This document shows positions 12,035 to 23,306 of a DNA stretch of 64,000 nucleotides, in pieces. Below the pieces are notes generated by a model that was not told the DNA's origin, made no database searches, and worked only from the letters and a program-made list of their open reading frames with translations. How positions within the stretch are numbered: position 1 is the stretch's first letter; the number at the start of each line of letters is the position of its first letter. A program made the translations under genes and the position numbers. This DNA comes from Acidimicrobiaceae bacterium (GTDB taxonomy: Bacteria; Actinomycetota; Acidimicrobiia; Acidimicrobiales; Poriferisodalaceae): positions 1 through 64,000 of the forward strand of contig PAHW01000035.1 in the NCBI GenBank assembly GCA_002705305.1. The letters run 5' to 3'.

Positions 12035-12062
12035 TACGGTCATACCGATCGAGTGTGAGGAG
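12035..12062 (+). promoter_or_regulatory. Promoter -10 (TACGGT) and GAGGAG ribosome site of the ArsC-like selenoprotein gene
   Basis: TACGGT at 12035-12040 would start transcription near 12047 and leave a leader of about 20 nt. GAGGAG at 12057-12062 sits 5 nt before TTG 12068 and fixes that start. An in-frame TGA just upstream rules out an earlier start. Confidence 0.55.
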
Positions 12063-12067
12063 TCACG

Positions 12068-12424
12068 TTGACCGGTGTCACGATCTATCACAATCCCCAT
12101 TGAGGCTCATCGAAAAACGCCTTAGCGGTCGCTGAGGAACACAATGTGGACGCCGAAGTGGTCCTCTATATGAAGACTCCGCCCGATCGAGCAACCTTGG
12201 AGCAAATCGTCTCTGTTCTTGAGGACCCCGTCGAGGATCTGGTGCGAAAGGATTCCAAATTCAAAGAACTTGGGTTGAACCCTGAGGACTATGTCGGAAA
12301 CGCGCGAGCTGTTGTCAACCTGTTGACTGAACGAAAAGCGCTGATGCAACGACCTCTACTCGTAAAATCTGACCGAGCCATCATCGGTCGACCGAAGGAC
12401 CGTATCGCTGAGTTCCTCGGTTAG
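12068..12424 (+). CDS. ArsC-family (glutaredoxin-type arsenate reductase-like) selenoprotein, TGA = Sec12
   Basis: 118 residues if TGA 12101-12103 is read through. The frame starts at TTG 12068 and reads GVTIYHNPH-U-GSSKNAL, placing the TGA exactly at the catalytic Cys12 of E. coli ArsC. The rest is a full ArsC fold with the arsenate-binding arginines equivalent to R60, R94 and R107 (here R60, R95, R108, in LVRKD, QRPLL and GRPKD). A hairpin with a GGTC loop lies 16 nt after the TGA, as expected for a bacterial SECIS, and selD is in the same window. Family members reduce arsenate via thiol chemistry; related YffB/Spx-like proteins do not, so the substrate is not certain. A conventional gene caller would start at GTG 12146 and lose the active site. 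Confidence 0.88.
12120..12137 (+). promoter_or_regulatory. Candidate bacterial SECIS hairpin of the ArsC-like gene
   Basis: A 7-bp stem, CCTTAGC with GCTGAGG (one G-U pair), closes a GGTC loop. The loop guanines lie 24-25 nt after the TGA. A short hairpin with G and U in its apical loop at about this distance is what SelB recognises in known bacterial selenoprotein mRNAs. Confidence 0.72.
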
Positions 12425-12492: not shown

Positions 12493-12514
12493 GAGGGTCG
12501 CTGCTGAAGCCCAG

Positions 12515-12700
12515 TGGGAGAGTTCGACCTATTTGTAGACCTCGGTTGGTCGGCGCCAAAGGAGCAACCGCCCCGGGAATCTCTCAGGCACCAGGACCGC
12601 AGGGACCAAGCAACGCTGGAGAGCGAGAGGGGCTTGGGCACCTCTCCACCGAAGGGGAAAACTGCGAGTAGCGGCCAATCTCTCAGGTTCCATGACAGCG
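12515..12700 (+). ncRNA. Tandem glycine riboswitch upstream of gcvT
   Basis: Two consecutive glycine aptamers are visible. The first (about 12515-12600) has GGGAGAG, then GCGCCAAAGGAGCAA, then AATCTCTCAGGCA. The second (about 12613-12698) has GGAGAGCGAGAGG, then CACCGAAGGGGAAAAC, then AATCTCTCAGGTTCCATGACAG. These are the conserved blocks of the gcvT RNA motif. Glycine binding normally switches on glycine-cleavage genes. A short hairpin directly after it (12706-12721) borders the gcvT ribosome site, suggesting translational control. Confidence 0.93.
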
Positions 12701-18463: not shown

Positions 18464-19522
18464 GTGACTAGTTTGATTCGACTTACCCAGTACAGCCACG
18501 GCGCTGGTTGAGCTTGCAAGCTCGGTCCGAGCGACCTGGCGCACGTGCTGCGTCACTTACCCAAGCCCGACAACGCGAATTTGTTAGTCGGCTCAGAAAA
18601 TAGTGATGATGCAGCCGTTTGGAAACGCTCCGAAGGTAAAGCTTTGGTCGCGACGGCCGACTTCTTCACACCGATAGTTGATGATCCAGTTCTTTGGGGA
18701 GAAATCTCGGCTGCAAATGCCGCCAGCGACGTCTACGCAATGGGAGGGGAACCGCTCTTCGCTTTAAATCTCGTGGCTTGGCCTAAAGACAAGTTACCCC
18801 TTGAGTTGCTGAACCAAGTGCTGTCTGGTGGCCAGCGAGCAGCCGACAATGGCGACTGGGTTGTAGCAGGCGGTCACACGGTCGATGGGCCTGAACCGAT
18901 GTACGGAATGTCGGTACTCGGAGAAGTTGATCCCGAGGACCTTTTAACCAACCAGGGCGGTCAGTCAGGCGAGACACTCGTCTTGACGAAACCTATCGGA
19001 ACCGGTCTTTTAGCAACGGCGGTGAAGCAATCTCAACCTGACGCTATAGCCATCGGAGGTTCACTCGAGATCACTTATGAGGCTGCAATTCAGGAGATGA
19101 CCAGACTCAACGCGGCCGCGGCGACAGCCGCAACCCGCGTCAAGGCCTCCGCAGCGACCGATGTCACCGGGTTCGGCTTACTGGGTCACCTTCACGAACT
19201 AACGATGGCAAGCGGTCTTATGGCCACCGTTGACACTGACGCAGTGCCTCTGCTGCCCCGGGTTCACGACCTATTTGAAGCCGGTTTCGTAGCCGGAGGA
19301 ACTGAAAGGAATTTGAGCTTCCTCGAACCCCACCTGGAGAACGGTTCGCACATGGAACGAATCATTCTCTCCGACGCACAGACTTCGGGCGGCCTGCTGT
19401 TTTCCTGTGACTCAGGTGCAGCTCTCGATGCAGTGGCTGAACTACGAGAGTCAGGTCATGATGCCGCAGTCGTCGGCACCCTTAACGACGGCCCTGCCGG
19501 AAAAATCTTTCTGGCAAGCTAA
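18464..19522 (+). CDS. selD: Selenophosphate synthase SelD, itself a selenoprotein (TGA = Sec16)
   Basis: 352 residues with read-through of TGA 18509-18511. The frame reads LIRLTQYSHGAG-U-ACKLGPSDL, so Sec replaces the catalytic Cys of the family's GAG(C/U)xCK motif and the essential Lys19 follows. The rest is a complete SelD: SENSDDAAVWK, TADFFTPIVDDP, SDVYAMGGEPLFALNLVAWP, and the C-terminal DVTGFGLLGHL and LSDAQTSGGLLFS. It makes selenophosphate from selenide and ATP for selenocysteine and selenouridine. Sec-containing SelD is well known and is a reliable marker of a Sec-decoding genome. Conventional calling would start at GTG 18545 and drop the active site. Confidence 0.95.
18520..18532 (+). 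promoter_or_regulatory. Candidate SECIS hairpin of selD
   Basis: GCTC and GAGC enclose GGTCC (or GCTCG/CGAGC enclose GTC), with the loop guanines 13-14 nt after the TGA. The loop resembles that of the ArsC-like gene, but the stem is short and closer to the TGA than in typical bacterial SECIS elements. A longer stem with internal loops is possible. Confidence 0.45.
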
Positions 19523-21832: not shown

Positions 21833-23239
21833 TCAGAGATCTAAAAGAGCGTTCTCCACAAGTTCGCTAAGAGCGGGATGGATGTAGAACTGTCCGGAGG
21901 CGAGCTCATCTACCGTTTGCCCGAATTCCATCCCCTGGATTAACTGCTGAACGAGAGTCGCTGCTTGGGGACCGATTATGTGGGCCCCCAATAGCTTCCG
22001 AGTTTCAGCATGAGCTATGAGCTTGCAAAAGCTCTGGGTGTCTTCCATCGCCCAACCGTAAGCGGTTGCACCGTACTCCTTGATGGCTACCGTTACCGGC
22101 ACCTCTTGTTCGTGAGCGGCTCGTTCGGTGATCCCGACCGACGCCACTTGGGGGTGCCCAAACACGGCATGAGGAACGAAGCGATCATCGACGGTCAGCA
22201 TTGGACCGTCAGATTCGCCTTCGGCAACCAAAAGGTTGTGTCGGAGCGCCCTCACTTCGGCATTAGCGAGATGTTTGAGCTGATGAATATTTGAGAGGTC
22301 ACCAAACGCCCAGACACCCTCAGCGTCAGTCCGGAAGAACTCGTCAACCAGTACTCTCCCACCGTCATGTGAGACCCCGGCTTGTTCGAGTCCTAGTCGA
22401 TCACCGTTAGGGATGCGTCCCGTTGCAACGAGGACAACGTCTGTCTCTATAGTTTCGGCTTCCCCATTCCTCACAATCTCAACGCAAACCGTCTTTCCAT
22501 CTTGGGATACGCGAGTGACTTCGCTTCCGCAACGAAGATTAAATCTGTCTTGCACGAGTCTCGTGAAACATTGGGAGACGTCATCGTCTTCGTGTTTCAA
22601 CAGTCGATCACCACGGTTAATGACCGTGACCTCGGTACCGAATGCAGAAAAGACGTGGCCCAATTCGGCGGCAATGTATCCGCCTCCGAAAATGACCATC
22701 CGTTGGGGCAGCGTGTCAAGACGCATAACCGTGTCAGAGGTGTGAAAATCGATGTCGGCGAGACCTGGGTATGGGGGTATGAAAGGGCGTGCCCCAGCGC
22801 CAAGGACCACGTAACGGCCCGATATTTGACTGACTCTTCCCTCCGGATCGGTCACCTCGAGCATTCGTTTATCGACAAAGCGGCCTTCCCCTTTAAATAC
22901 CGTGATGTTGGGGCACTCGTCGCTTAGTCGATAGCTTTCCCCTCCCTCAACAATTGGATCAATTCGACCGAAGACACGATCTCGTACAGCAACCCAATCC
23001 ACGTTGGTTATGTGGGCGTCGATGCCGTAGACGGAGGCGTTACGGATGGTCTCGGCGACGTCAGCGGCGTAAACGAACATTTTTGAGGGGATGCAACCGA
23101 CGTTTAGGCAGGTGCCACCAAAAAGATCTTTCTCGACGATGGCAATTTTCCAATGGTCGAACTCAGGGCCTGGGATGCTGTTTCCTGATCCAGTTCCGAC
23201 AATGACAAGATCGAACTCTTCTGCTCGCGCATCGCTCAT
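21833..23239 (-). CDS. mtr: Mycothione reductase
   Basis: 468 residues of the pyridine nucleotide-disulfide oxidoreductase family. FAD-binding VGTGSGNSIPG starts at residue 12, the redox pair is in GGTCLNVGCIPSKM, the NAD(P) site is FGGGYIAAELGHVFSAFG, and the C-terminal catalytic region is FYIHPALSELVENALL. The segment FVYAADVAETIRNASVYGID and the TAYGWAMEDT motif match mycobacterial mycothione reductase rather than dihydrolipoamide dehydrogenase. It keeps mycothiol reduced with NADPH. ATG 23239 is preferred over an upstream TTG. It supports the mycothiol-linked reading of the DsbA-like gene at 296. Confidence 0.9.
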   Translation of the reverse strand: MSDARAEEFDLVIVGTGSGNSIPGPEFDHWKIAIVEKDLFGGTCLNVGCIPSKMFVYAADVAETIRNASVYGIDAHITNVDWVAVRDRVFGRIDPIVEGGESYRLSDECPNITVFKGEGRFVDKRMLEVTDPEGRVSQISGRYVVLGAGARPFIPPYPGLADIDFHTSDTVMRLDTLPQRMVIFGGGYIAAELGHVFSAFGTEVTVINRGDRLLKHEDDDVSQCFTRLVQDRFNLRCGSEVTRVSQDGKTVCVEIVRNGEAETIETDVVLVATGRIPNGDRLGLEQAGVSHDGGRVLVDEFFRTDAEGVWAFGDLSNIHQLKHLANAEVRALRHNLLVAEGESDGPMLTVDDRFVPHAVFGHPQVASVGITERAAHEQEVPVTVAIKEYGATAYGWAMEDTQSFCKLIAHAETRKLLGAHIIGPQAATLVQQLIQGMEFGQTVDELASGQFYIHPALSELVENALLDL

Positions 23240-23306
23240 ACAAAGAGTCAACCAGCAAGAAGGGACTGGCGCGGTCCGAAAGCCTGCTAATTCCGAACGG
23301 TTGAGG

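Follow-up and report, generated by a model that had tools for sequence, protein, structure and literature searches.

The gene at 12068..12424 (forward strand) of the window, which is the whole stretch of 64,000 nucleotides analyzed here, is predicted with near certainty to use an in-frame TGA for selenocysteine (Sec) at its catalytic position, and very probably encodes a selenoprotein of the ArsC family (Sec-ArsC). The frame starts with TTG at 12068, ends with TAG at 12422-12424 and encodes 118 residues, and on translation it holds a single TGA, the predicted Sec codon (12101..12103, forward strand), which is residue 12 and is aligned with the catalytic Cys12 of E. coli ArsC, exactly as first noted from the letters of the DNA. 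The read-through product begins with LTGVTIYHNPH-U-GSSKNALAVAEE..., and the residues around the TGA are ...TIYHNPH-U-GSSKNAL..., including both the YHNP and the SKNAL segments that the sequence-only reading had named as flanks. The strong ribosome site claimed by that reading was read directly as GAGGAG at 12057..12062 (forward strand) with a 5-nt spacer to the TTG, and the codon at the position of this TTG in relatives is ATG in 85 and GTG in 21 of the Sec sequences. Under translation table 11, the ORF opens first at GTG 12146 and has 92 aa, so that 26 N-terminal residues are lost, as had been foreseen, together with the active site; in other words, automatic annotation removes the active site of the Sec-ArsC gene.

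Homologues were drawn from two collections, namely 198 genomes of this order and the GTDB species genomes; in the latter, they occur mostly in Acidimicrobiales, plus Verrucomicrobiales and one Kofleriaceae. Among all 169 homologues with a readable codon 12, this codon is TGA in 138, TGC in 29 and TGT in two and nothing else, some of these loci being one species met via both collections (as distinct proteins, there are 128 with Sec and 30 with Cys). An orthologue with neither Cys nor Sec at this position, which would have spoken against the Sec reading, was thus not found among the 169. The TGA is aligned to Cys in homologues with conservation on both sides, and the segment before it is conserved as protein, the third codon positions being the most variable.

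A SECIS hairpin, CCTTAGC-GGTC-GCTGAGG, is located at 12120..12137 (forward strand), with a 7-bp stem that begins 16 nt past the TGA, as initially claimed, and a GGTC loop (12127-12130) 23 nt past it. The 26-nt hairpin piece showed -10.4 kcal/mol (z -2.7, 1/200 shuffles equally good), whereas the 47-nt fold was no better than shuffles (z -0.74), so that the advantage holds only for the 26-nt hairpin. A search of the 201-nt region against Rfam yielded no SECIS up to E 10, which is weak evidence of absence; curated Rfam families include few bacterial SECIS. A single hairpin by itself is weak evidence and proves nothing, because a scan of the window for TGA with GGTC hairpins found five against about four expected, but the comparative evidence lifts it above chance. 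GGTC is present at exactly this site in 86/121 distinct Sec sequences versus 0/30 Cys sequences. Across these 86 sequences, the stem is paired in 98.5% of cells, 33 stem cells are altered on both sides (e.g. G-C to A-U, or U-A to G-C or C-G), covariation scored 0.221 versus 0.121 in shuffles (0/500 reaching it), and shifting the partner columns by 1-3 reduces pairing to 29-67%. Since the 86 were selected for GGTC, loop invariance within the set is circular. In a non-circular test, all of the 85 distinct sequences that encode Ala-Val at the loop use GCG GTC; elsewhere in the same genes, GCG accounts for 85/352 Ala codons and GTC for 344/834 Val codons. Judged from these comparisons of sequences, the SECIS of Sec-ArsC is under selection at the RNA level. 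The other 35 Sec sequences have different downstream hairpins, many of them CAATGC-CGTGC-GCATTG, and the covariation analysis concerns the GGTC set only. The identical GGTC loop occurs in the proven selenoprotein gene fdhF of E. coli, 18 nt past its TGA. Bacterial SECIS elements have a G-containing apical loop 16-37 nt after the UGA (PMC10778597), and the loop found here, at 23 nt and on a covarying stem, lies within this range.

The machinery for Sec is complete in the source genome (94% complete). The tRNA-Sec scored 66.1 bits against a gathering score of 47 and was called SeC with anticodon tca by ARAGORN, and selB was found with selA directly adjoining, so that the selA, selB and tRNA-Sec whose absence might have overturned the Sec reading are all present. 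The selenophosphate synthetase gene selD lies in the window itself (18464..19522, forward strand; scoring above the TIGR00476 cut-off) and contains one TGA, at 18509-18511 in the context SHGAG-U-ACK. This selD is itself a predicted selenoprotein gene, in which the TGA is followed by GCTCGGTCCGAGC, another GGTC hairpin, 6.4 kb from the ArsC gene. Over the 198 genomes, tRNA-Sec was detected in 53/58 genomes with the TGA form versus 33/60 with the Cys form (Fisher p 8e-6, kinship ignored). The five TGA-form genomes with no tRNA-Sec match (G071, G119, G170, G178 and G195) are drafts, and a stricter filter was applied.

With regard to the protein family, the product matched PF03960 over the whole profile (E 7e-15, above the gathering score). 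Its top NCBIfam match is TIGR00014 (E 7e-28), at 97.4 bits with C replacing U, which is below the equivalog cut-off of 106.05; the same model matched 32/32 relatives scanned. The arginines equivalent to R60, R94 and R107 of E. coli ArsC, which had been noted as the three arsenate-binding arginines, are invariant in the 128 Sec and 30 Cys forms, and His8 and Ser15 are nearly invariant in both. Thus, the catalytic Cys12 (here Sec) and Arg60, Arg94 and Arg107 of the Glutaredoxin-type arsenate reductase are all represented. UxxS is found in 127/128 distinct Sec forms and appears as UGSS in the window protein, which therefore combines an ArsC domain with an active-site UxxS, the two marks of the UxxS ArsC selenoproteins. 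The AlphaFold model (pLDDT 94.5) gave 3rdw and 3f0i as its best PDB matches and superposed on E. coli ArsC 1jzw with TM 0.84, while Spx and YffB were lower by E-value. Compared with E. coli ArsC (1jzw, 1i9d), the protein has in common the fold, HNPxC/U, His8, Ser15 and the three arginines, but differs from this Grx-dependent enzyme in having Sec for Cys12, only 26% identity, no ars operon and mycothiol-type redox genes in the host.

Three other explanations of the gene itself have to be weighed. The TGA might be a genuine stop, which would make the gene a pseudogene or restrict its product to the 92-aa ORF that starts at GTG 12146, and this ORF is indeed all that the table-11 reading yields; nevertheless, the residues encoded ahead of the TGA show conservation at the protein level, conservation is found on both sides, and 138 homologues share this TGA and have no other stops, leaving this explanation next to no probability. 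A sequencing or assembly error for TGC or TGT, or decoding of the TGA as a different amino acid, found no support in our data and is about as improbable, because the codon is identical in more than 130 other assembled loci, in independent assemblies of related species, and because SECIS and Sec machinery are present; a misread TGC or TGT is practically excluded by this recurrence. We therefore rejected both the pseudogene reading, on the two-sided conservation, and the error reading. Reading codon 12 as Sec is favored because only TGA and Cys codons occur there, the SECIS covaries, the Sec machinery is complete and tRNA-Sec co-occurs with the TGA form, and the original claim of Sec at the catalytic cysteine is supported on all these counts. 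The third explanation is that the protein is of Spx or YffB type with Sec, i.e. an RNA polymerase regulator or a thiol enzyme. They have the thioredoxin-like ArsC fold in common, Spx and YffB structures align with the model, and the protein is matched by Spx models with E-values from 3e-15 to 2e-11. However, TIGR00014 scored 97 bits versus 57 for TIGR01617 and 22 for PRK10853, the Spx score was 44 bits against a cut-off of 123, the protein has UxxS in place of the N-terminal CxxC of oxidisable Spx, and ArsC structures come first both by sequence and by fold. We consider this identity very unlikely and rejected it on the lower profile scores, the motif and the structure ranking: of the three groups, ArsC is the one nearest to the protein. 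Of the two fates offered by the sequence-only reading, a Sec arsenate reductase or a member of the Spx/YffB branch, the ArsC branch is thus supported by profiles and fold, the Spx/YffB branch is not, and arsenate reduction is putative.

Sec-ArsC of this type was already predicted in 2005 and 2008, so the kind of selenoprotein is not new. Arsenate-reductase selenoproteins with UxxS were found as 14 sequences in the Sargasso Sea set in 2005, under COG1393/pfam03960 (PMC1088965), and the 'ArsC 1' UxxS family counted 77 sequences in GOS in 2008 (PMC2398784), so that the ArsC-like entries in selenoprotein surveys to which the sequence-only reading referred do exist. These first-reported UxxS ArsC selenoproteins were metagenome reads (PMC1088965, PMC2398784). 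Reviews of 2022 and 2026 list the arsenate reductase selenoprotein (PMC9312934, PMC13188914), the latter placing the family under TIGR00014 with UxxS and describing most such selenoproteins as functionally largely uncharacterised (PMC13188914). The window protein is like this family in its ArsC fold family, Sec at the catalytic Cys, UxxS and a SECIS just downstream, but here it is set in an Acidimicrobiales-like genome with Sec machinery, a GGTC SECIS, Cys sisters and a gene neighborhood. The locus thus ties a 20-year-old metagenome prediction to one genome with complete Sec machinery, and the Cys sister forms permit a clean Sec/Cys comparison. No paper combining selenoprotein, selenocysteine and Acidimicrobi was found in the literature searched. 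The ArsC-like UxxC selenoprotein ('Arsenate reductase 2' of GOS; NF041106, PMC13188914) is also Sec-containing and ArsC-like but differs from the UxxS protein described here, and NF041106 gave no match to the window protein at E up to 1.

As for mechanism, the ribosome would initiate at TTG 12068 and reach the UGA at codon 12, where a SelB-GTP-Sec-tRNA complex, tethered by the downstream GGUC hairpin, would put Sec in the position that the catalytic cysteine otherwise occupies. If the reaction is analogous to that of E. coli ArsC, the selenolate may then attack an oxyanion, most likely arsenate, that the three arginines hold in place, and an external thiol would reduce the selenium oxidised in this step. 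Such oxyanion reductase chemistry is rather likely on this analogy. Cysteine is absent altogether from 119/128 distinct Sec forms, and therefore an outside reductant is needed. This role probably falls to mycothiol and mycoredoxin and not to the glutathione/glutaredoxin pair. A mycothione reductase gene is present in the window (21833..23251, reverse strand; NF005884 643 bits, cut-off 501), which suggests mycothiol as the small thiol and redox system of the cell in this lineage, and a mycoredoxin-like protein is encoded elsewhere in the genome data (TIGR02200 at 76.6 bits, below the cut-off of 89.5). Because of these two proteins, the mycothiol chain is a likely source of electrons for the Sec enzyme.

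Chemically, the enzyme probably works as ArsC does, but arsenate as its main physiological substrate has in our judgment only an even chance. The neighbors in the window are serB, an enoyl-CoA hydratase gene (EchA) and gcvT-gcvP, with a glycine riboswitch (12505-12609, forward strand; 59.6 bits) between the last two and the Sec-ArsC gene. Over 79 loci in relatives, the conserved neighbors are an EchA-like gene upstream in 31 (a cluster that mixes paralogues), SerB in 18, GcvT in 17, GcvP in 15 and a CysQ-like gene in 12, and no ars genes were seen among the frequent neighbor clusters, the gene lying outside any ars operon. Acr3 and ArsB are the two common arsenite exporters. Both are absent from the 94%-complete source genome, and a strong Acr3 or ArsB match was found in 7/58 Sec-ArsC genomes versus 49/140 others (Fisher p 9e-4, kinship ignored). 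A genomic link to arsenite export through Acr3 and ArsB or to an ars operon was thus not found, and ArsM-like matches at E 1e-40 occurred in only 3/58 Sec-ArsC genomes. Since the gene does not travel with Acr3/ArsB, the family name may mislead. The alternative that the main job of this ArsC-fold selenoprotein is other than arsenate detoxification, namely that of a housekeeping selenol oxidoreductase which, for example, removes mycothiol from proteins or reduces another oxyanion or a peroxide, comes a little short of an even chance. It agrees with the missing ars operon, with neighbors that are housekeeping genes (EchA, SerB, GcvT/GcvP, CysQ-like) and with exporters that are absent here and rarer in Sec-ArsC genomes. 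On the other hand, an oxyanion substrate is suggested by the retention of the three arginines, His8 and Ser15 in practically every Sec and Cys form, and arsenite may exit by routes besides Acr3/ArsB. Tentatively, the widespread Sec-ArsC branch, conserved in Acidimicrobiia and apparently passed with its SECIS to Verrucomicrobiota, could be a housekeeping selenol oxyanion reductase rather than a device of arsenic resistance, driven by mycothiol/mycoredoxin in those hosts that possess them.

Some other frames with an in-frame TGA were observed in these genomes. ArsM-like matches with exactly one such TGA (G004, G029, G058, G078, G079, G104, G115, G131 and G146) may represent the GOS family of Sec-containing arsenite methyltransferases. 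Moreover, an Acr3-like frame with one in-frame TGA (G142:C22:8292-9245), in a genome with no tRNA-Sec match, is perhaps a pseudogene.

In a tree of 124 sequences, which was built on few columns and has many open forks, the Sec/Cys label changes seven times versus 27 in shuffles. In the same tree, the Sec-ArsC of Verrucomicrobiota (L078, L081, L085, L090, L092-L094, L099, L100, L102, L105 and L109) form one cluster inside Acidimicrobiia with the same GGTC SECIS. This nesting and the GGTC SECIS common to both groups suggest horizontal transfer of a selenoprotein gene together with its SECIS. The Cys forms L119 and L125/L136 have TGC and a decayed hairpin (in L119 and L125, the hairpin lost is that of the CAATGC-CGTGC-GCATTG type, as judged by eye) and are nested among the Sec forms L121, L127 and L128. 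They are likely Sec-to-Cys reversions because of this nested TGC and decayed hairpin, and because the genome of L136 (G102) has no tRNA-Sec match. Finally, genomes of the family f55 possess two diverged Sec-ArsC paralogues (L181-L184 with L040, L042, L132 and L134), both with the in-frame TGA.
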